This document shows, piece after piece, positions 1 to 64,000 of a DNA stretch of 64,000 nt. The DNA is from Beroe forskalii (lineage: Eukaryota > Ctenophora > Nuda > Beroida > Beroidae). The stretch lies in NCBI GenBank assembly GCA_011033025.1, contig WFMF01000091.1:310001-374000 (forward strand), given 5' to 3'. A program made the translations under genes and the position numbers. The first letter of the stretch is position 1; the number at the start of each line of letters is the position of its first letter. Below the pieces are notes generated by a model. It was not told where the DNA came from, made no database searches, and saw only the letters and a list, made by a program, of their open reading frames with translations.

Positions 1-190
1 GAATGAATGAATGAATGAATGAATGAATGAATGAATGAATGAATGAATGAATGAATGAATGAATGAATGAATGAATGAATGAATGAATGAATGAATGAAT
101 GAATGAATGAATGAATGAATGAATGAATGAATGAATGAATGAATGAATGAATGAATGAATGAATGAATGAAAATGAATGAAGGAAGGAAA
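1..190. repeat. (GAAT)n microsatellite
   Basis: A nearly perfect run of the tetranucleotide GAAT fills the first ~170 bases and then degrades to GAAGGAAA. It is simple sequence and lies downstream of the last DNAJA3 exon visible here, so it is presumably intronic to that minus-strand gene. Confidence 0.97.
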
Positions 191-194
191 AAAC

Positions 195-290
195 GGCACT
201 TATTAATCAACGGCAATCTTTATTAACAACGGTAACTCTATTAACGCTACCTTATTACCAACGGCGTCTCTGACAACGGTACAGAAAGTA
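195..290. repeat. Degenerate remnant of the 17-bp GGTACC repeat
   Basis: Several diverged copies of the motif TTAACAACGGTACC are visible between the GAAT run and the last DNAJA3 exon. They belong to the repeat family that is far more regular at 3386-4510 and 56386-56600. Confidence 0.6.
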
Positions 291-344: not shown

Positions 345-3300
345 CAGCAGGTATGTTGATGTCAGCCTCTTCCGACACAGTGGTAGTCCCCTTCCCGTGG
401 CACCCCTTACACTTCTGAGTGATGATCTGCCCCTGGCCCATACAGGTGGGACACTCCTGTTGAACGTGGTACCAACCCACCTGACTTACCACATGGGGAA
501 GGAGTGTGGTTTTACACTTTACATAACGCTACAGAGCTAAAGGAGGAAATCCAGGGTTTTTACCACCCACCTGACTTACTACCTGGGGTTGGGGCGAGGT
601 TTACAATTTACATAAAGCTACAGGGGGAAACCCAGGGTTTTCATACCGCTTGGTGTAGGAATGATGATTCAAAAAGCTACAGGGGTTTAAGGAGACTTTG
701 TACCGACTTTTGAGTGACAAACAACCGGATAAACTTTGAACAAATTGAAAGATTTACGGTCAATGATTATTTCCCAATGAATCTTGACCCACATGCCCGG
801 AGCCCTTACAGCGGTGACAGTTCCTAAGCCCTGATCCTGGCTCCCCCTTCCTCCCCTGACACCTGCTACAGGTGGCAGGGTAACTGAGTGTAACGTTTCT
901 CTGGGTCCCGTTACACGCCTCCAGGAACGAGATGTTCATCTGGTACTGAGGAGGGAGGGTGTGATACGGATGGGGATGTTTATTGTTTACCTTTTTAATA
1001 TCAAGGTTATACTCGACAGATAGGTCAGGGTTGCCGGAAGTTTGGGCACTGTCCTTGGTTATGGGATACACTTAATGGCGATAAACTGATAAGGATAACC
1101 CGTAAAAGAGATAAACAGATTGCAAAATGCAACAGCAGGTAATATCTACTGTAGCATAACCAGAGGGCGGTTTGATCAACAGAAGGTCTCTTACCCGTGT
1201 TCGTGATTGGTTTGCTGACTTTTGCCCTCCGCTGTCGGATCCGAATATTGACTCGAAGTCAAAGTTGCCTCCGAACGCTTGTCTGAACAGATCCTCTGGG
1301 TTCACCTGGAACAGGGCAAAGTGTGGGGAAGGGCATGAATGAGCACCATATCCAAAATAAATTAGTTAAGTTTATGCAATATGTACTATGTAGTATACAA
1401 TACCGATTTATGCCAATAGTCAATATCTATTTTGAACAAAAACAAGAAATATGTACCAAATACAATATCCAATCGCAGAAGCAGAATATCAAGGAATTCC
1501 CTCACCCAGAAGCCATTTCTTTGCACCATTCCCCGTTTATGTTGGTGCCAATTCCTCCGCCACCTCTTCAACGTACGCTTTCTAAACCTCTCAAGTCTAA
1601 TCTTCTCATCAAGTCTTATCCTCTCCTCGAAAGACGGTCCCGCATCGGGACCACTCTGAGTCCTCCTCCGTTTCCTGTTACGAGTCTGGTTATAGAAGAA
1701 ATCATGCTCTACCTTAGTTTGGTAGCTGTAGGAGCTCTGAGCGTTTCCGAAGGGGTTGCCGCCTCCACCGCCTCCGAAGGGACTGTTGGCACCGCCGGCA
1801 CCGTACGTGTCGTACTCAGATCTCTTCTGCTCGTCTCCAAGCACCTTATGTAAGGAGATGTTTTATGAGTGTAGATGATAAGGCATGGATAAACATTAAG
1901 CAATCCTAGGATAGACTGCGTCAGATCGACATTGATTTCCTTGGATTGTGTCAGAACGTTAGTCACGATTGATGACTCGTGAAGCATTGGGCCACACTCG
2001 TCAGCTTCAAGTTTGATCCTATCTAGATCGAGCCTATAAACAATTCCAAGCAAGATGAAAATGTGGATTGTTACTAACCTCGTATGCCTCGCTGATTTCT
2101 TTGAACTTTTCGGCTGAATCTGTGTCCTTTGCCACATCTGGGTGATGCTTTTTAGCCAACTGAAATAATGAGGAAGTGTACTAAGTTTGCTTTGATGACA
2201 GCGTTACAGATATCTAGTCTAAGCTATCTTCTGATTGCATATCCAATCATAAAGTGAAATTGCACAAAACGATAATCGACGATAAAACAATTGTCGCACG
2301 ATAATCGTTTCAAAAAAGGAAGGAAGGGAAGGAAGGGAAGGAAGGGAAGGAAGGGAAGGAAGGGAAGGAAGGGAAGGAAGGGAAGGAAGGGAAGGAAGGG
2401 AAGGAAGGGAAGGAAGGGAAGGAAGGGAAGGAAGGGAAGGAAGGGAAGGAAGGGAAGGAAGGGAAGGAAGGGAAGGAAGGGAAGGAAGGAGGAAGGCGAA
2501 GGAAGGAAGGAAGAAGGGAAGGAAGGAATGGAAGGGAAGGAAGGAAGGAAGGGAAGGAAGGGAAGGAAGGGAAGGAAGGGAAGGAAGGAAGGAAGGAAGG
2601 GAAGGAAGGAAGGGAAGGAAGGAAGGGAAGGAAGGAAGGAAGGAAGGAAGGGAAGGAAGGGAAGGAAGGAAGGAAGGGAAATAAATGAATGGAATGAATG
2701 AATGAATGAAGGAAGGAAGGAAAATGGAAGGAAGGAAGGAAGGAAGGAATAAGGAAGGAAGGAATGAAGGAAGGAATGAAGGAAAGGAAGGAATGAATAA
2801 TGGAATGAATGGAAAAGGAATGAAATGAAGGAATAAATAAGAATGAAGGGAATAGAAGGAAGGAAGGGAAGGAAGGAAGAAGGAAGGAAGGAAGGGAAGG
2901 AAGGAAGAAGGGAAGGAAGGGAAGGAAGGAAGGAAGGAAGAAGAAGGAAGGAAGGAAGAAGGAAGGAAGGAAAGGAAGGAAGGAAGGAAGGGAAGGAAGG
3001 GAAGGAAGGGAAGGAAGGAAGGAAGGAAGGAAGGGAAAGGGAAGGAAGGAAGGAAAGGAAGGAAGGAAGGAAGGGGAAGGAAGGAAGGAAGGAAGGAAGG
3101 AATGAAGGAAGGAGAAGGAAGAAGGAAGGAAGGAAGGAAGGAATGAAGGAATGAAGGAAGGAAGGAAGGAGGAAAGGAAGGAAGGAAAAGGAAGGAAGGA
3201 AGGAAGAAGGAATGAAGGAAGGAAAGGAATGAAGGAATGAAGGAAGGAAGGAAGGAAGGAAGGAAGGAAGGAAGGAAGGAAAAAGGAAAGGGAAGGAAGG

Positions 3301-6300
3301 AAGGAAGGAAGGAAGGGAAGGAAGGAAGGGAAGGAAGGGAAGGAAGGGAAGGAAGGGAAGGAAGGGAAGGAAGGGAAGGAAGGGACCGTATTTACAACGG
3401 TACCTCATTAACAACGGTACCTTCTTTACATCGGCACCTCATTTACAACGGTACCTCATTAACAACGGTGCCTTATTAACAGCAGTACCTTATCAACAAC
3501 GGTACCTTAGAGGGGTGGCCAACGCGCTTTTAGGCTCTTTTAGGCCCCACTTTCTAGGGCTCTTTTCAGATTATTTATATCCTTTGGAGCCTAAAAGAGC
3601 CCTATACTAAAATTGTTCTAATAATTGATTGCACAGCCCCAGATAGTCAAAATGCCATTTATATAGGTAGTCTGATTGAGTGCTTTCTTCAATGAGGTAA
3701 CAGTATTTCAACAATCCAGTATACTTTGAGGACACTATGGCTATTGATCCCGGAAAACTGTGGGAAAATGTTTAAAGGGCTCTTTAGGGCCCCAATTTCT
3801 AGGGCTCTTTCAGGTCACTGTCATCCTCTAGAGCCCTACAAAAATTTTATCGAATTTTTCCTAAAATGCAAAAAACCCAAAAATTAAGTCATTAAATGAT
3901 ATTTAAATAGAAAATAATTGTTTCGAGACGTTATTAGGCAACAGGCCACAAAATCTAATATTTTTACCCCAAAGGCCCTTTTAAGCTCTTTTAGGCCCCA
4001 CTTTCTAGGGCTCTTTTTGGATTTTTTATATCCTCGGGGCCTAAAAGAGCGTTGGCCCCCCCCCTACCTTATCAACAACTGCACCTCATTAACAACGGTA
4101 CCTTATCAACAACGGTACCTAATTAACAACGGTACCTGATTAACAACGGTACCTTATTAACAACGGTACCTTATTGACAACAGTACCTTGTTAATAACAG
4201 TACCTTGTTAACAACGGTACCTAATTAACAACGGTACCTTGTTAACAACGGTACCTTATTAACAATGGTACCTTATTAACAACGGTACCTTATTAACAAC
4301 GGTACCTCAATAACAAAGGTACCTTATTAACAACGATACCTTATTAACAACGGTATCTTATTAACAACGGTACCTTATTAACAACGGTACCTAATTGACA
4401 ACGGTACCTTGTTAACAACGGTACCTCAATAACAAAGGTACCTTATTAACAACGATACCTTATTAACAACGGTTTCTTATTAACAACGGTACCTTTTTAC
4501 ACCGGTACCTTATTACTTTACTAACGACATATTAAGCAACACAATTGAAAACTAACAAGCAAAACTAATGACTAGAGGGCGCTACACGTGGCTTTATATA
4601 TGCCACTGACACCACTCTGTACCCAATCAAGCATGACGAATAGCGTTACGTGCACATACCAACTCTATGACGTTGACACCACTTTGCACCATATGAAGCG
4701 TGACGAATAGCTACGTTTGCACATTCCACATACCAACCCTATGACGTTGACACCACTTAGCACCCAATCGAGCATGACGAAAAATGTTACGTGCACATAC
4801 CAAATCGATGACATTGAAAGCACACAAATTCATTACGATAAAAAGAGCCTTTTTTTTCTTTCTCTTTCATTTCATGCATCTATCATTCTTTCAAAATTGA
4901 ATTGATATGTGTCCTTGGCCACATCTGGGTGATGTTTCTTAGCTAGCTCAAATAATGAAAAAGTTTGCTTTGATGACAGTATTACATATATCTAGTCTAG
5001 GCTATCTTGTGATAGCATATCCACTCATCAGGTGACAGACAAGCAAGACCCAACTAAAATGCAGCTGTAATTTTGCTTGAATGATTTGAATGAAAGTTCT
5101 TCTAATTTCCACAAAGTTTCTACAAATACGCGCGTGATTTTGAATGGACGTCCTATAAATATCATTGCGCGTTACGTAAACAAACGCGAATTTTCTGGAA
5201 ATTTGCCACTGTCACAAAATGCCAAAACGGCGAATAGTCTGGATTTCAGGAGACAGAAGTCATATTGAACTTCGCGGTGGTGCCAGAGCTAGGAGGTGTC
5301 AGAGTAGAAAGTGACAGAAATAGCACCAGACTGCTGTGATCTGTTATAGTGAATTGGTGTCAGTGACTCACTAAGGATGTTGTCACGGTACAGTGGTGTC
5401 CGCGTGAATTGTTGTCATGGCTGAGCTCTTACATCATTCTCTGACACCCTTGGAATGGTGCCAGAGTATAAGTGAAGCTTTTCAATAGTTTGGTGCTGTC
5501 GAACTGAATTCATGCTACTTGGTACTGGTTGAGCATGATGACCTCTTGACACATCAGAGGTATTTATTGATGATGAAAACAATCAAGCCGCATATAATAT
5601 ACACAAACACCTTGGTAAACATAACAGGTCACAGACTATCAAATAACAGCAAACAACTGTTAAAATGGGGCACAAAACAAAAACAAAGTACGACCAACAA
5701 GCTCAAGTATCTTGCAAAACATCAAAACTCTTCCTATACTATCGTTGCACTATTTCATAATCTCAGTGCTTTGTAGCTGACCTTTTTTGAACACACGAAG
5801 TTTTGGGTTACAAAACAAGACGTTTCCTTCAGCTGATCCCTTGTATTTTGCAAATAAATTTGCACTCCTGGAATGACTTGCAACCCGTTTGATGCTGACA
5901 GTGACTATGAAGATGAACTAGGGAGTAGGAGATCCTCTAGTTCATCTTCCTGTCGTAAAGTATCGTTCAGTGAACCGAGGCGAGGGTCCATTGTACTGGA
6001 TGGAAGGAGAGGGTCTCTCTTCTCTATCCCGGAGATTAGTCAGAGGAGGAAAGGGTCTGTCTTTGCTCTGTTTGATGATCCTTTTGGGTAAGTGCCGTAC
6101 CTTCACTTTTTATTGGGTTAGGTTAGCAAGTTTTGCTTGAAGAAACGGTTCCTTGAATTTGATATCGTTTTGAATTTCAGATCGTTTTGAAGTTCCTCAT
6201 CCAGACATTTCTCTCAGTGACCACGGAGGACCACGACGCCTTACCCTCTCCATCCTCCCAGAAGAAAGTGACACCAGTGACACCAGCTCTGATGACAACA

Positions 6301-21609: not shown

Positions 21610-21790
21610 CCCTATCTTGTCAGACGTTGTCTGACCATTATTTCAGTGAAATAAGGGTCAGATGAAACTTTACGCGATATTTTTACGCCGCGCATGGGTA
21701 TAGAATATGTTCGTACGTGCGCGATGAAGCAATTACAGCATCGCGCGTGCGGTAAACGTACATAAATCTGGCAAATCGTGACAAATTTTG
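21610..21790 (+). mobile_element. Short foldback element related to the one at 31530-31745
   Basis: gtcagacgttgtctgacc, then a hairpin-like attatttcagtgaaataa, then gggtcagatgaaact and ttacgccgcgca. The same blocks appear in reverse complement at 31580-31740 (ggcgtaaaa, agtttcatctgacccc, ggggtcagacaacgtctgac), with a different, much larger hairpin in the middle. Confidence 0.5.
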
Positions 21791-21919
21791 AAACGAATGA
21801 AATTGCATGTGGGCGGGCTGCAGGCTGGCCATTAACCGGATTTGATGGTTTAAAATTATGGATATATGATGGTAGAGTTGGTTGAGTCAATTGTTAGGCA
21901 CTGTCTGAGCACTTTCGAC

Positions 21920-22290
21920 TTATCCCATATAAATTCGCCAGTAGTTTTAGGCAGAAATCCCGAGGTCAATTTTTCTGGTAGTTTGAAGAATCATTAACTC
22001 TGCCAAAATTTCTAACGTTCCAGTCCTAACCCAAAACAACAAATCAAGTCAATCTGACCCTTAACCTTTTGTCCTTAAAGCGCTAGTGCGCTTAATTATA
22101 TTTTTCTGAGTGACGTCATTGTCATTAATGAAGGGCAGCGCCTTATGGGAGACCTACCCACTTTCGAGTACCATATTACTCGGTAATTCGCCAGTAGTTT
22201 TAGGCAGAAAATACCCGAGGTCATGGGCACTTCTTGGCGGGTAGTTTGAAGAATTCGTGAACTCTGCCATTCATTTCACGTTCCAGTGCC
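21920..22290. repeat. Direct repeat pair, ~260 bp apart
   Basis: attcgccagtagttttaggcagaaa, then cccgaggtca, gtagtttgaagaat, aactctgcca and acgttccagt, occur in the same order from about 21931 and from about 22190. A two-copy local duplication of about 110 bp. Confidence 0.75.
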
Positions 22291-22529
22291 CGTTTCCAAG
22301 ATCAAAATCTGTACATTTTTGTGACAACTGCCCCTGCCACAGATTTATTTTTTTGACAAGAAGCCGTTACACTTACAGCACAGACCCATAACAAATAACA
22401 ATTTCATGGCTATAAAGTTGAAGGAAATATAAGATTTCAACTGGGATTTAATTTCATATTCTTAAATACATTTCATTGGGCAGCACCCAAATCTCTAAAT
22501 CGTCCACAGCACCAGATGCACGACAGTGT

Positions 22530-25500
22530 CACACTGCCATGAACCGCAGCACTATGTTTGGCACAGTGTCACACTACCATGAACTGCATCACTCTGTTTG
22601 ACACAGTGTCAGTTGTCACACTACCATGAACTGGAGCACTTTGTTAGACACAGTGTCACACTATCATGAACCGCAGCACTTTGTTGTGCAAACACTACCA
22701 CACTACCATGTTTTACAAAAATTATTTTCCATTAGCACCATTAGCCATTGGAGGCTGAGTTTTGACACAGTGAGTGACCTGAACCAGAGCACTAAGTTTG
22801 ACACAGTGTCACATTAGCCATGAACGGCAGCACTAGTGTTTGGCATGTCACACCACCATGAAAAATAGCCTCCACTATGGAGGACTATTTGACACAGTGT
22901 CACACTACCATGAACCGCAGCACTATGTTTGACACAGTGTCACACTACCATGAACCGCAGCACTTTGTTTGACACAGTGTCACTCAAGAATTGAACCATT
23001 AGCCTCCACGGAACAGTTCAAAGTCATTTTTTGAACTGCATCACTATGTTTGACACAGTGTCACACTATATGAACCAAATGGAGGTCACAGAAAAATCAT
23101 GAAAACACAGACACACATGTCACACAACCATGAACTGCATCACTGTTTGACACAGTGTCACACTATGAACCGCAGCACTATGTTTCACACAGTGTCACAT
23201 TACCATGAACTGCATCACTCTGTTTGACACAGTGTCACCCTACCATGAACTGCATCACTCTGTTTGACACAGTGTCACACTGCCACCATGAACCAGCAGC
23301 ACTATGTTTGACACAGTGTCAGTGTCACTACCATGAACTGCAGCACTATGTTTGACACAGTGTCACACTACCATGAACTGCATCACTCTGTTTGACACAG
23401 TGTCACACTACCATGAACTGCAGCACTACAGTGTCACAGTACACTACCATGAACCGCAGCACTATGTTTGACACAGTGTCACACTACCATGAACTGCATC
23501 ACTATGTTTGACACAGTGTCACACTACCATGAACTGTGGAGGCTATGTTTGACACAGTGTCACTAGTGGCCTAGTACCATGAACCTAGCATCACTGAGTT
23601 TGGCACACTAGTGTCACAGTGTAATGGAGCCATGAACTGCAGCACTCTGTTTGACACAGTGTCACACTACCATGAACCGCAGCACTATGTTTGATACAGT
23701 GTCACACCATGAACTGCATCACTCTGTTTGACACAGTGTCACACTACCATGAACTGCATCACTCTGTTTGACACAGTGTCACACTACCATGAACTGCAGC
23801 ACTATGTTTGACACAGTGTCACACTACCATGAACTGCAGCACTACGACACAGTGTCACACTACCATGAACTGCAGCACTGGCAGTGTCACACTACCATGA
23901 ACCGCAGCACTATGTTTGACACAGTGTCACACTACCATGAACTGCATCCTCTATTGACACAGTGTCACACTACCATGAACTGCATCACTATGTTTGACAC
24001 AGTGTCACACTACCATGAACTGCAGCACTATGTTTGACACAGTGTCACACTACCAAAGTTTGAAACTGCATACTTGTTTTTCACAGTGTCACACTACCAT
24101 GAACTGCAACACTTGTGTTTTGTACACAGAATCATTGATGAACACAGTGTCACCACTACCATGAACTGCAGCACTATGTTTGACACAGTGTCACACTACC
24201 ATGAACTGCATCACTATTTGACACAGTGTCACACTACCATGAACTGCAGCACTATGTTTGACACAGTGTCACACTACCATGAACTGCATCACTATGTTTG
24301 ACACAGTGTCACTACCATGAACTGCATGCACTATGTTTGACACAGTGTCACATTACCATGAACCGAGCACTTCTCATGACCATGAACCGCAGCACTATGT
24401 TTGACACAGTGTCACACTACCATGAACCGCATCACTCTGTTTGACACAGTGTCACACTACCATGAACCGTAGCACTATGTTTGACACAGTGTCACACTAC
24501 CATGAACCGCAGCACTTTGTTGTGTCACACTACCATGAATGTTGCTATGTTTGAACAGTGTCACACAACCATGAACCCAGATTACACACTACTACAAACC
24601 TCGACTATGTTTGACACAGTGTCACACTACCATGAACTGCAGCACTATGGTTGACACAGTGTCACACTACCTAGAACTGCATCACTATGTTTGACACAGT
24701 GTCACACTACCATGAACCGCAGCACTTTGTTTGACACAGTGTCACACTACCATGAACTGCATCACTATGTTCGACACAGTGTCACACTACCATGGACCGC
24801 AACACTTTGTTTGACACAGTGTCACACTGTCACACTACCATGTATATGTTTGACACAGTGTCACATTACCATGAACTGCAGCACTATGTTTGACACAGTG
24901 TCACACTACCATGAACCGCAGCACTATGTTTGACACAGTGTCACGCTACCATGAACTGAAGCACTATGTTTGACACAGTGTCTCACTACCATGAACCGCA
25001 GCACTATGTTTGACACAGTGTCACACTACCATGAACCGCAGCACTATGTTTGACACAGTGTCACACTACCATGAACTGCATCACTCTGTTTGACACAGTG
25101 TCACACTACCATGAACCGCAGCACTATGTTTGACACAGTGTCACACTACCATGAACTGCATCACTATGTTTGACACAGTGTCACACTACCATGAACTGCA
25201 TCACTCTGTTTGACACAGTGTCACACTACCATGAACCGCAGCACTATGTTTGACACAGTGTCACACTACCATGAACCGCAGCACTATGTTTGACACAGTG
25301 TCACACTACCATGAACTGCATCACTCTGTTTGACACAGTGTCACACTACCATGAACTGCAGCACTATGTTTGACACAGTGTCACACTACCATGAACTGCA
25401 GCACTATGTTTGACACAGTGTCACACTACCATGAACTGCATCACTCTGTTTGACACAGTGTCCTACTACCATGAACTGCATCACTCAGTTTGACACAGTG

Positions 25501-26260
25501 TCACACTACCATGAACCGCAGCACTATGTTTGACACAGTGTCACACTACCATGAGCCGCAACACTTTGTTTGACACAGTGTCACACTACCATGAACCGCA
25601 CTATGTTTGACACAGTGTCACACTACCATGAACTGCATCACTCTGTTTGACACAGTGTCACACTACCATGAACCACCGCAGCACTATGTTCAACACAGTG
25701 TCACACTACCATGAGCCGCAGCACTTTGTTTGACACAGTGTCACACTACCATGAACCGCAGCACTATGTTTGACACAGTGTCACACTACCATGAACTGCA
25801 TCACTGTTTGACACAGTGTCACACTACCATGAACTGCATCACTCTGTTTGACACAGTGTCACACTACCATGAACCGCACTGCAGTTCAACTTTTTGTCAC
25901 AGTCACACTGCCATGAACTGCAGCACTATGGTTGACACAGTGTCACATTATCATGAACTGTCACAGAACACAATACACTCACATGCAGCACTTTTGTTTG
26001 ACACAGTGTCACACAACCATAAACAGCATCACTATGCTGACAGTGTCTCACATTATCATCTCATCATAGTCACTATTTTTTGACAGTGTCAAACTACTGA
26101 CAACCCTGAACCGCATCACAATATAACATTTGACACAGTGTCACACTATAATTTACTATCATGAACTGCATCACTATGTTTGACACAAGGTTCACACTAT
26201 CAAGATACACATGCAGCACTATGTTTGACAGTGTCACACTGTCATGAATCACATTACTAA
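22530..26260. repeat. 40-bp minisatellite with GACACAGTGTC palindrome
   Basis: About 90 copies of a 40-bp unit: gacacagtgtcacactacc, then atgaa and one of two variant tails (ccgcagcactatgttt or ctgcatcactctgttt). The block 24600-25880 is very homogeneous; the edges are shuffled, with truncated units and foreign words such as tagcctccac. The unit starts with the 11-base palindrome GACACAGTGTC. Long frames (HSVTLP, DTVSHYHEL) are artefacts. Confidence 0.97.
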
Positions 26261-55400: not shown

Positions 55401-58034
55401 ACAGAAATTTGAGCTCATTTCATTCGCAAGAAATAAACATACCCATAAGAACAATATGATTGCGCAGCCACTCAACTCCTTTGTCAGTAATTCTTATTTT
55501 ATCTTAATCAGTAATTCTATAAAACTATCTGCTGGTTCTGCGCTTTCAAGGCGTGGTGAAAGTGAGAACAATGCTCTAAATTTGAATGAGAAATGACGCT
55601 ATGATGATCAACTTATACTTTGATAATTAACTCATACTTCACTCGACAGGAGCACATCGCAAAGAAATGGTCGACGTTGTCAGACAAGTATCGACAAGAT
55701 CTCCGAGAGTTCCTGTACTTGGGAGCTCTGCGGGAGAACCAGATACAGTTCATAACGGTGAAATGCATCAAAGTGTTCGTTAACATCGGAATCAGGCAGT
55801 GGGCTGCAGACGACACCTTCTTCAAGCAGATTATGCAGGTACCTGTTTAATGTGTGGCTTTCTATGTTTGTATGTACCAACAAAGTCCCTGAGTGATTCT
55901 GATTTGAGTAGGAACAGTCGTCGATGAAGCCAGGGGTAAGGCAGAGCAGGCTTAGCCTCACCTGGAGGAGTCCTTGCCTAACCTCTTATTCTCTAAGAAA
56001 CTTGGTATTCAACAGTGATGTTTGTTTTGTTCAAGTGAGGCATGATTATACAGATCACACAGACCAAGGGGTGAAGTTTCAAAACCTAAATCAGTGATAT
56101 ATCTATGGGTATCAGTTGTGTCTCACGCTAGGCTCACTAGCTTGAGTGGTTTCAACGTCATAGATTTGGTATTTGCACGTTACTTCATTCGTCATGTCTG
56201 ATTGGGTGCTAAGTGGTGTCAACGTCATCGCGTTGGAATGTGGAATGTGCATACGTCGCTGTTCGTCATAGATGACGGAGTGGTGTCAGCCATCATATAT
56301 AAAGACGTGTGCTGCCCCTCTCGTCATTAGTTCAATTCGTTTTCTTGGTGTTCAACTTGCCTTGTTTAACGTGTTGTAAATAAAGTACCGTTGTTGTTAA
56401 GGTACCGTTGTTGTTAAGGTACCGTTGTTGTTAAGGTACCGTTGTTGTTAAGGTACCCATGTTGTTACCGTTGTCAATAAGGTACCGTTGTTAACGTCGT
56501 ACCGTTGTCAATAAGGTACCGTTGTTAACGAGGTACCGTTGTTAATAAGGTACCGTTGTTAACGTCGTACCGTTGTTGCTGAGGTACCGCTGTAATTAAC
56601 GTCTAACGTACCTTTTATAATAAGGCGATATGTGCCCTGACCTTAAATCTTTGCTACGTTGCTGGTGCAGTAGAGACAGTTTGAGAACGGAATAAACCGT
56701 GTACTGTATGTTTATTTATTTCATGATGAATTGTATTCCGTCGTTACGTCAGCCAAAGCCCAATATTCGTGTTTCAGTTTGTGACGAATCCTTCCCTGCC
56801 TACCTCCCAAGAAACAGGCATATCCATGCTCCAAGTGCTCTCAGAAGAACTAAACCGTCCTCGAGTGGACATCCACTGGGACGTGTACCAGGGAAGCAAA
56901 GACAAGCTAAACGATCAGATCCCAGCCATCCTCAGCTCCCTAACTTCCCTCCTCGACAAGATGTCAGGCGCTACCCTGACCCCACCTGCTGCTGCTCTGT
57001 GTAGCAGCATCTTGCAGTGTCTGGCACACCTCTTCTCATGGGTCTCCCTGACCGACATCCTGACACCAGCCCTCCTCACCACCGTCTTCCACTGTGCTAA
57101 GCAGGGTCTAGCAGGGGCAGGGGGTGGTGTGGGGGTGGGGGTTCACGCCATGAGCTGTATTAACGAGATCGTGAGACGGAACCTAGTGCCGGTTCAGGTA
57201 GAGGAGTTCGTACTGCAGCTGTTCCAGCAGACACTCCTGCTCCTGACCAGTGTAACGCAAGGGGACCTCGACACCATCGACACCGGGTCAGTACCTCAGG
57301 GGAACGGAAATTAATCATTATTTTTTCAATCTTTATTATCTCTATTTTTAGGAAGAAGAATTTAATGATTAACGTGGTTTGGGCTGCACAAATTTTACAA
57401 TTTTACTCGACAGAACGATGAATTTGCATGAAATAAGCTGAATTTGACCACTCCGATCACCGGGTACTTGAAGAAGCTGATAGAGTTTCTGAACCTATTC
57501 ACAGCTGGGCACCTCCGACGGGTTGAGTCCAACTCCTCCTTTCCCGTCCTAGAGTTCCTGTCCCTGCTGTTCACCTTCACCGAGCGTCAGACGGACGCTG
57601 ACATGTTCAGCGGGACGGTGGATATGTGTAGTTCCTGGGTGGACTTCCTGCTCTCCGTGCAGGGCTCCCTCTCCCCGGATGGAGCGGTGCCAAGGTAGCA
57701 TATCGCTATAGATTCGGTACGGTTTCGGTTCGATTAACCGACTGGTGACTAATTCTCTAAACGGTTTATTGCAAAATCAATGTATTCGTTCACAGTTTTG
57801 GTTGGCTAAATACGCTCGGTTTACCAGTGTTGCGGTTTTGTTAACCGGTTGTTTCCTAGGTACGGGGAGGCACTGACGACACTGACCCAGCTGATCGTAG
57901 CCAAGGTCTGCTACCGCACTAACGGGGTCATGTTGGAGGATGTGGATGACACCCTCACGGAGAGCGAAACCAAGGAGATCTGCCACACTGAGTGGGATCT
58001 GTTCCTTGGAAAACTTACTCAGCTCCTCAGCAAG
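46426..58034 (+). CDS. XPO6: Exportin-6, first six coding exons
   Basis: Importin-beta-family receptor that exports profilin-actin from the nucleus with RanGTP. Exons: 46426-46513 (MTDAFLLNLDNLLSEFYSA), 53950-54062 (WECCVHLLQQSQ, WWALSTLE), 55650-55838 (EHIAKKWSTLSDKYRQDLRE, WAADDTFFKQIMQ), 56778 to about 57290 (GISMLQVLSEELNRPRVD, CLAHLFSWVSL), 57438-57694 (HLRRVESNSSFPVLEFLSLL) and 57860-58034 (ESETKEICHTEWDLFLGKL). Phases agree; the 57286/57290 donor choice is uncertain, phase 0 favours 57290. Conserved order against human XPO6 is clear (AHLFSW, HLRRxES, FPVxEF). About 400 of the roughly 1100 residues are present. Remaining exons are not found up to 64000, so the GPCR gene at 60.2-62.6 kb would sit in the next intron, or the gene is broken here. 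Confidence 0.92.
47161..48640 (+). repeat. Left arm of a ~950-bp inverted repeat (with MITE inside)
   Basis: Reverse complement of 52837-53787. Starts tactccagtagcccaagcaa and ends agattcagtgt. Inside are two diverged tandem ~145-bp units (caaaaaccgagttatgggcg, gggcctaaaatgctcac) and two copies of aatctgatgccaatc with gacct. A 530-bp MITE interrupts it at 47799-48328. Confidence 0.85.
47799..48328. mobile_element. Mariner-like MITE nested in the inverted-repeat arm
   Basis: Perfect 22-bp terminal inverted repeats (ccttagtacacttaagaacg plus gc at 47799-47820; complement at 48307-48328), continuing with one mismatch to 27 or more bases. TA flanks both ends. The other arm of the large inverted repeat is uninterrupted here (gaaataggtgccaatcag), giving an empty-site comparison. 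Just inside is a 19-base palindrome (47823-47841 with 47847-47865). Non-coding. Confidence 0.85.
48641..50040. other. Interior of the inverted-repeat structure, left part
   Basis: No gene recognised. An AG...GTAAGT-bounded stretch at about 49083-49165 is open in one frame but matches nothing I know. Confidence 0.4.
50054..51034 (-). CDS. LINE ORF1 protein, intact frame
   Basis: 326 residues. A coiled-coil N-terminal half (VELSQKESKEAGNKVIKLQD) is followed by an RRM-like middle (NVILFGVPEEADENLKEKVD, FVAARFGRIEGKRPVRVTMD), then a basic C-terminal domain (KTPEERAERRKLVQELKKKI, HPRKKFFIRRGEI). Same layout as the broken ORF1 at 27924-28810. Such proteins bind and chaperone the LINE RNA. No ORF2 follows on the minus strand below 50054, so this copy is internally deleted or 3'-truncated. 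It may start at the ATG at 51034-51032. Confidence 0.75.
   Translation of the reverse strand: MGSFFDSVQKEIALSLNHMEKIKGLGRNKTVTVQLLKDKMDKDKMAHIILEVMERTEACVALLQNAVSEVELSQKESKEAGNKVIKLQDELLSSKTNQINQFQKMVDSQLKNTIKTEMKSYSDAVKKDAGENLTIRNIKTAVKDIVKNASEEREKNVILFGVPEEADENLKEKVDEIFNVINVKPRFVAARFGRIEGKRPVRVTMDKTETVFEVLKVAKNLKQNQVYSNVFIGLDKTPEERAERRKLVQELKKKIAEHPRKKFFIRRGEIHCSEDNVEVASSEQRVKAEQEEVSAAKPRTHPPPFQRVASARRPAYSETEVDSSDY
51740..52310 (-). other. Open frame of unknown nature upstream of the LINE ORF1
   Basis: A 158-codon minus-strand frame (52222-51746: ITYESSTEMVSTMNLEYKKH, KLGGIVCTISGSQ) of moderate complexity, with no recognised domain. It may be LINE 5' leader or cargo of the inverted-repeat structure. 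Confidence 0.3.
52837..53787 (-). repeat. Right arm of the ~950-bp inverted repeat, uninterrupted
   Basis: Inverse of 47161-48640 without the nested MITE. Small differences are scattered throughout. Together the arms bound a 6.6-kb structure lying wholly in XPO6 intron 1. Confidence 0.85.
54690..55190. repeat. ~125-bp tandem repeat, four copies
   Basis: Each unit holds agcaactc(g/a)atggcgaagg, aattttgaaaaaattcgaaa, gcgaaaaaagggcgtggcc, cacgcccctcagggtgaccc and attcggacaaaattctcaaa. Lies in XPO6 intron 2. A short (AAAT)n and (TA)n run follows at 55280-55320. Confidence 0.9.
56150..56620 (+). mobile_element. GGTACC promoter-repeat element, copy 2 (plus strand)
   Basis: Same order as copy 1: CCAAT-type gattgggtgctaagtggtgt with caacgtcat; TATATAAAG at about 56295-56303; gtgctgcccctctcgtcatt and agttc about 30 bases after the TATA; a leader of about 70 bases ending gtaaataaag (AATAAA inside); then about 11 units of ggtaccgttgttgttaa or variants. 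It lies in XPO6 intron 3. In both copies the element points the same way as its host gene. Confidence 0.75.
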
Positions 58035-63744: not shown

Positions 63745-64000
63745 TGACATCAAACTAGTGTCAGTGATACGTCAGACTGGTGTCATTGATACTACAGACT
63801 GCTGTCAGTGATACGCCAGACGTTCATTAGTGATACGTCACACTGGTGTCAGTTATAATACAGAATGGTGTCAGTGATACGTCAGACTGGTGTCTATGAT
63901 ACGTCAGGCTGGTGTCACTGTCAGTTATACGTCAGGCTGGTATCAGTGATGCGTCGGACCGGTGTCAGTGAAACTTTAGACTGGTGTCAGAGAAACGCTT
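63745..64000. repeat. 22-bp tandem repeat ggtgtcagtgatacgtcagact
   Basis: About eleven imperfect copies running off the right edge. Each holds TACGTCAG, a CRE-like core. It starts within 30 bases of the truncated 5' end of the LINE fragment. Confidence 0.88.

Follow-up and report, generated by a model that had tools for sequence, protein, structure and literature searches.

A 64,000-nucleotide stretch of the genome of Beroe forskalii (assembly GCA_011033025.1, contig WFMF01000091.1; C1036:310001-374000 in our numbering, hereafter the window) contains two copies of a unit in which promoter-like sequence is followed by a long 17-bp tandem array, raising the question of what this unit is and how it came to be repeated. 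An initial annotation of the window had described a protein-less, promoter-bearing unit without clear terminal repeats and had suggested that it could be a retroelement or a solo long terminal repeat (LTR)-like unit ending in the array. Searches across the 216-Mb assembly (1134 contigs) show that the promoter-bearing repeat family is real, well linked, mobile-element-like and, as far as tested, not retroelement-like; the observation is thus confirmed and its interpretation partly supported. The family may well represent a dispersed, non-autonomous element that moves at the DNA level, carries a predicted RNA polymerase II (Pol II) promoter and is oriented beside CGCG clusters. It stands nearest to the Helentron-type non-autonomous elements (HINEs), to which we do not assign it.

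The promoter core pattern TATATAARGNCRTGYRCTGC occurs at 110 exact places in the genome and at none for the reversed control (252 and 11 places, respectively, when up to two mismatches were allowed). Two consecutive units of the 17-bp array were found exactly at 839 places, again with none for the reversed control. Used as DNA queries, the two window copies gave 98 and 224 matches, each from 40 scored candidates. Forty loci (L009-L048) were fetched for their similarity to the window copies, and the order of upstream modules, core, leader and array was identical in all of them, as had been described for the two copies in the window. From the array side, the 100 places listed correspond to 20 distinct array loci (hand count), at least 13 of which have a same-strand promoter upstream among the promoters listed. 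No promoter is listed for C1:250545, C3, C44, C46:7020, C55:34479, C84 and C154, the promoter lists being incomplete; C44 and C46:7020 are followed on the same strand by the 3'-end segment described below. Motif searches listed about 100 places each and DNA searches scored 40 candidates each, so the linkage counts are lower bounds. The genome-wide search with the window copies and the array repeat, as proposed initially, thus revealed a dispersed family with promoter-array linkage. Neither copies running into an LTR or long interspersed nuclear element (LINE) family nor an uncoupling of promoter and array was seen in the fetched copies or listed matches, and no shared LTR or LINE coding part or gag/pol lies next to the element in 42 copies with 2-4 kb of flank.

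These 42 copies, the fetched loci plus both window copies, were also used for the motif and zone counts. TATATAA and at least two CGTCA motifs are present in all of them, ATTGG (inverted CCAAT) in 41 and the exact initiator-like sequence CATTAGTT in 34. The initiator A lies 30 bases from the first T of the TATA box in 18 and 31 bases from it in 20 of the 39 copies measured, in line with the roughly 30 bases noted initially; the remaining one is a spurious upstream match. The leader is nearer 50-60 bases than the 70 first estimated, and AATAAA is found at +60 to +120 in 21 copies. Upstream of the core lie two to four modules of about 70 bp, more in a few copies. The TATA region (-70 to 0) has a mean identity of 0.94 in subfamily A and 0.93 in subfamily B (19 copies each); it had been noted initially as better conserved than expected for junk. 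This conservation is not evidence of present selection, because similarity guided the choice of copies and because, in four duplicated pairs, identity within the element is not consistently higher than in the flanks. In the array (1583 units), positions 1-12 (GGTACCGTTGTT) are 90-97% conserved and positions 13-17 74-82%, a contrast for which two common unit types account in part. The opposite strand of the conserved part carries CAACGG, which we take to resemble a MYB site.

The array is not the 3' end of the element, as had been supposed. Fuller copies (L013, L017, L042, L048 and others) run on beyond it through (CCTT)n, a 15-bp GATC array, a CCCTAA-like sequence in some, a CGATTATCG-rich stretch and a 3' segment, the more complete ones terminating in ...AATCCAGAGATTTTCCACTG. 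Since the 3' half shares its middle part with a separate and far more abundant repeat (1389 first-look candidates), the linkage test at this end was restricted to the last ~290 bases. A genome-wide search with these yielded 77 matches; 40 of its 53 candidates were scored. The 3' end is sharp: 26 of the 40 distinct places stop at query 281-284 (hand count), and about 60 bp of it are conserved. For 18 of the 40 places, the nearest listed promoter lies upstream on the same strand within 4 kb, and for none on the opposite strand. One place, C436:490030, was scored as having its promoter downstream, yet also lies ~1.65 kb after another promoter, which gives 19 of 40. The remaining 21 have no listed promoter within 6 kb. 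Because its middle part is shared with the abundant repeat, the element is a mosaic. Copies of this middle part also occur as inverted pairs (C170:986774-987259, C174:150839-151519, C514:211393-212139, C680:373042-373491), which look like arms of an abundant inverted-repeat element.

At the 5' side, the subfamilies start differently. With the upstream part of L041 as query, 22 of 39 other main places begin at query 178-208, corresponding to about -401 to -371, and with the segment upstream of the copy 2 modules, which represents the 5' region of a different subfamily, 24 of 41 other matches begin at query 60-73 (both hand counts). Subfamilies A and B1 have further 5' segments of their own. Thus, one promoter-array core has been joined to several 5' segments. 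The motif GGAACGCGCG, first favoured as the 5' end, was rejected: it is common genome-wide (1240 places versus 241 reversed), it belongs to another repeat in L037 and L040, and none of the 39 other main places scored extends into the CGCG-box stretch of L041 (query 1-160). L036 and L027 have inverted partners and L018 has a short inverted array, but a fold-back architecture was likewise dismissed as a rule.

Upstream of the promoter lies a zone rich in CGCG and GCGC. Across the 42 copies, these words reach 17-28 per kb at -600 to -300 versus 1-5 per kb farther up, at -1500 to -700; past the array, they amount to 10.5 per kb in the first 100 bases and 0.7-7.3 per kb beyond. A 450-base stretch with at least four of them is present in 34 of the 42 copies at -700 to -250, in five at -1450 to -1000 and in ten just after the array (29, 5 and 8 of 37 when one of each duplicated pair is left out). 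In the 30 copies with a placeable subfamily, the peak follows the subfamily 5' end, at -450 to -300 in A (17 copies), -600 to -400 in B2 (six copies) and -350 to -200 in B1 (seven copies, with a second rise at -500 to -450). The motif GGAACGCGCG occurs in the zone of several copies. Promoter parts are 0.88-0.94 identical in A and 0.72-0.93 in B, and most copies cannot be aligned with one another in the CGCG zone (mean identity 0.34-0.43, with some shared 5' segment contained in the higher value), which is nevertheless 0.91-0.97 identical in the four duplicated pairs, as are their flanks. The zone is therefore not one fast-drifting ancestral stretch; insertion on a fixed side of CGCG clusters of the host, or CGCG-rich DNA carried in separately by each copy, would account for it.

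The element also retains CpG. Median observed/expected ratios are 1.10 (promoter) and 1.17 (CGCG zone) versus 0.76 and 0.74 in the far flanks (44 rows, duplicates included; Wilcoxon p = 1.1e-5 for the zone versus far upstream, p = 0.009 for the first 500 bases past the array versus far downstream), and the ratio is 0.59 for the whole window. In 1451 array units, transitions at the two CpG positions amount to 4.3% and 3.0% versus 0.9-2.0% at three non-CpG C/G positions. This pattern fits DNA that would be little methylated in the germ line.

Only a few pairs have in common long flanks that run directly into the element (L014/L024, L031/L048, L032/L045, L033/L040, L009/window and L044); these pairs look like segmental or tandem duplicates; the remaining flank matches are patchy and part of other repeats. 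Head-to-tail tandem copies of the element are present in L016, L044 and at C952:7195-9036, and the duplicated stretch of L044 is 99-100% identical and therefore recent. The copies lie in or beside unrelated genes. In the window, copy 1 is located between DnaJ coding parts and copy 2 before an exportin exon (by eye), DnaJ and Xpo1 domains being found among the open reading frames (ORFs) scanned. Other copies lie at genes for PRMT5, an aminotransferase, aldehyde dehydrogenase, 2-oxoglutarate dehydrogenase, polyprenyl synthase and others. With four duplicate copies dropped, filtering left 378 sense and 367 antisense ORFs of at least 60 aa, and on each side the 130 longest were scanned with Pfam; genes were matched to loci partly by eye. 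At E <= 0.001 and with domains grouped per gene, 12 matches near copies are sense and four antisense (two-sided p = 0.077; zf-RVT, zf-CCHC and a below-cut-off DUF5775 match left out), which is a hint only.

Taken together, these data suggest the following layout, from 5' to 3': a subfamily 5' segment, the modules, a TATA box and initiator at the standard spacing of 30-31 bases, a leader of ~50-60 bases and an expandable 17-bp array, continued in the fuller copies by (CCTT)n, the 15-bp GATC array, further segments and the sharp ~60-bp 3' end. Movement would occur in trans and depend on a borrowed enzyme of Helitron or other type; we favour such DNA-level movement because the modules are carried along although they lie upstream of the start site, and because the genome encodes Helitron-type proteins (20 domain matches, including Helitron_like_N). 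The enzyme would join the 5' end of the element next to CGCG-box clusters and thereby set its orientation, the promoter would hold the locus open and limit its methylation in the germ line, and the array would expand and contract by slippage or unequal exchange. A bolder version, which we put forward tentatively and consider rather doubtful, is that of a portable CpG-island-like Pol II promoter. Its insertion would be steered one way to the edge of host CGCG clusters, its body would stay unmethylated in the germ line, and lying mostly sense in genes it would supply start sites and binding-site arrays genome-wide.

Several observations weigh against a mobile element oriented by CGCG clusters. 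Eight of the 42 copies have fewer than four CGCG/GCGC in the upstream stretch (L012, L016, L017, L018, L037, L044, L047 and window copy 2), and the zone could be DNA brought along by each copy. It is held in common by L033 and L040, and in L037 and L040 it consists partly of an abundant repeat of ~412 bp (93-99% identity, some 40 scored places). Transitions at the array CpGs, about 1.5-5 times those at the three non-CpG positions, are no higher than at the first G (4.5%). No empty site was found, so we infer insertion from the flanks and the gene contexts, and no terminal inverted repeat (TIR) or subterminal inverted repeat was found to name an enzyme. None of the 20 Helitron-domain matches lies near a listed copy (by eye). 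In the four copies with a 3' end, the true ends were compared: no junction duplication beyond chance was seen in L013, L017 and L046. L044 has ACACGTACG at both junctions, a 9-base candidate duplication (4 of 300 random locus words match as long) that would speak for cut-and-paste movement. The alignment of copies proposed initially thus yielded a sharp 3' end and several 5' starts, and as to target duplications a single candidate among four copies. An earlier test of 12 copies, in which none was seen, does not count, having been made at a point later rejected as the 5' end. Finally, direct repeats of 110-174 bp flank window copy 1 and its duplicate L009 at or near the element ends, and one of 807 bp (99.4%) flanks the second L044 copy. 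These long flanking repeats look like tandem duplications. No such match was found in 37 of 44 records; the other seven are L009, window copy 1, both L044 copies, L016 (its own modules) and, weaker and displaced, L027 and L043. As a separate observation, the ~412-bp repeat (L040:1835-2246) gave 204 first-look candidates and is apparently a young family.

The alternatives differ in how the copies would have arisen. A HINE would be copied by a rolling circle and would have arrays between left and right modules, a palindrome near the 3' end and no target duplication; we consider membership in this class possible, though somewhat unlikely. The tandem arrays, the 4-base microsatellite, the conserved ~60-bp 3' end, the tandem copies in L016 and L044, the Helitron_like_N domain encoded in the genome and the absence of a short target duplication in three of four copies all suit it, as does an 11-pair stem in L013, some 50 bases inside the 3' end (z = -2.7, a value equalled or bettered in 5 of 200 shuffles). 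Canonical Helitrons, however, end in CTRR with a hairpin about 10 bases before the end. Here, the 3' end is not consistently CTRR-like (CTGG, CTGT and CCGT in three copies), the L013 stem lies farther inside, and the last 59 bases of the 3' end fold no better than shuffles (z 0.94). None of the four copies with a 3' end has a subterminal inverted repeat beyond the shuffle range, and the candidate duplication in L044 also speaks against a HINE. The published anatomy is alike in the part of the description cited here, but the microsatellite here comes after the 17-bp array, unlike the published order, and that part does not mention a TATA promoter (PMC7492417). The L044 junctions would instead suit a non-autonomous DNA element of the cut-and-paste type, whose insertion duplicates a short target and whose inverted ends are very short: if eight or nine bases were duplicated, the enclosed ends would read GACGCA...TGCGTC (by eye). 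L013, L017 and L046 have neither a duplication nor TGCGTC at their ends, and one of four tests at such a level can be chance in CpG-rich DNA, so that we regard this origin as very unlikely. Terminal inverted repeats as in miniature inverted-repeat transposable elements (MITEs) or other TIR elements were not found in the tested ends, apart from the possible 6-base pair in L044.

Copying through RNA, as by a solo LTR, a terminal-repeat retrotransposon in miniature (TRIM) or another Pol II-driven retroelement with the array as an expandable 3' part, would account for the textbook TATA box and initiator with their enhancer-like repeats, for AATAAA in half of the leaders and for the sharp 3' end. 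It is nevertheless improbable, because neither an LTR nor a TIR was found and because the modules, although upstream of the start site, are carried along with each copy. The fetched flanks hold no common coding neighbour. An LTR would be expected to have TG...CA ends and a target duplication of 4-6 bp; the 3' ends read CCACCG, CCACTG, CCACTG and TTCCAA, with no constant CA, and the exact 5' base is uncertain by ~20. With copies that continue past the array, the initial retroelement or solo-LTR-like reading is therefore not upheld, whereas its remark that terminal repeats are lacking holds for the tested ends. A family of host regulatory or non-coding RNA genes, spread by segmental duplication and kept for function, also seems unlikely. 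The duplicate pairs L014/L024, L032/L045 and L009/window, the retention of CpG, the stronger conservation of array positions 1-12 and the more frequent sense orientation relative to nearby genes would be expected of it. Against this, long contiguous flanks are common to few pairs only, copies lie inside introns of unrelated genes, the element does not consistently exceed the flanks in similarity, and the sense excess is 12 to 4 with p = 0.077. A search of the window with Rfam gathering scores gave no match to any family. Below the gathering score, 22 matches, mostly to miRNA models, were obtained in eight loci; none of these matches was used as evidence. They include one to a histone 3' stem-loop model at L044:1295-1341, upstream of the element (29.5 bits; gathering score 34).

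The features of the two copies and of a third fragment are compiled in Table 1.

Table 1. Parts of the promoter-array copies and associated repeats in the window (positions from the first letter of the window).
Feature	Position	Strand
Copy 1, 5' segment of subfamily A, GAATGATAGATGCATGAAATG...	4813..4897	-
Copy 1, three upstream modules of ~70 bp with TGACG and CCAAT-type motifs	4618..4823	-
Copy 1, TATA box TATATAAAG	4592..4600	-
Copy 1, initiator-like CATTAGTT; distance of its A (4569) to the first T of TATA, 31 bases	4563..4570	-
Copy 1, leader, start-like site to array	4516..4569	-
Copy 1, 17-bp array, block one	4065..4515	-
Nested element with terminal inverted repeats GGCCAACGC..., foreign to the promoter-array element	3512..4060	-
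Copy 1, 17-bp array, block two	3382..3509	-
Copy 1, (CCTT)n microsatellite past the array	2316..3383	-
Copy 1, truncated 3'-end segment CGATTATCG...GTGCAATTT	2257..2318	-
Copy 1, flanking direct duplication (~170 bp), 5' member with part of a DnaJ exon, ending near element 5' end	4873..5034	-
Copy 1, flanking direct duplication, 3' member, starting at element 3' end	2083..2256	-
Copy 2, 5' segment GCCAGGGGTAAGGCAG... of a subfamily other than that of copy 1	55927..56143	+
Copy 2, two upstream modules	56144..56277	+
Copy 2, TATA box	56296..56304	+
Copy 2, initiator-like site (A at 56326) and leader	56325..56372	+
Copy 2, 17-bp array	56373..56623	+
Third fragment without recognised promoter: array remnant ~192-285, (ATTC)n 1-189	1..285	-

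We take the TGACG motif of the modules to be of the cAMP-response element (CRE)/basic leucine zipper (bZIP) type and the other module motif to be of the CCAAT type. The nested GGCCAACGC... inverted-repeat element divides the array of copy 1 in two; its interior is 97% identical to the DNA right after the array of L011. The arrangement of the flanking DnaJ-exon duplication is the same at the DnaJ paralogue locus L009, 130 kb away. The third fragment had been annotated as an array trace at 195-285. The trace is present on the minus strand and is not isolated, as a same-strand 3'-end segment lies ~1.7 kb further, beyond the window (C1036:308246-308487). Elsewhere in the window, at 21673-22150, CGCG boxes are followed by TTAAAGCGCTAGTGCGCTT...GTGACGTCATTGTCATTAATGAAG, which resembles the middle of the 3' half of the element and has no 17-bp array; this stretch precedes a 40-bp satellite at 22523-25958. 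A 22-bp array TCAGACTGGTGTCAGTGATACG at 63750-63997 resembles the TGGTGTCAGTGG stretch immediately 5' of the TATA box.

If the family is indeed a mobile element oriented beside CGCG clusters, it would offer a ready case of how promoters and binding-site arrays spread, and target choice by a non-autonomous element would be directly testable from genome positions; the one-sided CGCG zone is the feature that stands out for such testing. In the literature searched, to which this statement is confined, no title describes a promoter-array element of this kind. Solo LTRs and TRIMs are short non-coding units with enhancer repeats, a TATA box, a start site and AATAAA. The present element is alike in these features and differs in that no LTR ends or full-length partner were seen and that it continues downstream into an array and further segments. 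Dictyostelium TRE5-A and yeast Ty3 are retroelements that insert on a set side of tRNA genes; the insertion proposed here would likewise be on a set side of a host feature, a CGCG cluster instead of a tRNA gene.

The Pacific oyster Cg_HINE, in the part of its description cited here, has a left module with a microsatellite, a tandem array, a right module of ~60 bp with a palindrome, insertion at TT and no target duplication (PMC7492417). Subterminal inverted repeats of ~11-12 bp in the left and right modules are a mark of Helentrons and HINEs. The same oyster case is cited in the portion of a review on tandem repeats from mobile elements to which we refer (PMC9659126). Cg_HINE and the Beroe family have in common that their units are dispersed and non-autonomous, that tandem arrays and a short microsatellite lie within them, and that the right module is ~60 bp long. 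Compared with that description, no subterminal inverted repeat was found in the Beroe element, its microsatellite comes after the array instead of before it, and it has a promoter with TATA box and initiator, enhancer-like modules and several unrelated 5' segments (PMC7492417). The nearest functional parallel is provided by Caenorhabditis Helitrons, which, according to the parts of two reports cited here, carry and spread heat shock elements and are transcribed (PMC6927752, PMC6765114), a case of mobile DNA spreading transcription-factor sites. The sites on those Helitrons are bound by HSF-1, whereas the candidate class in Beroe carries what we take to be CRE/bZIP- and CCAAT-type motifs.

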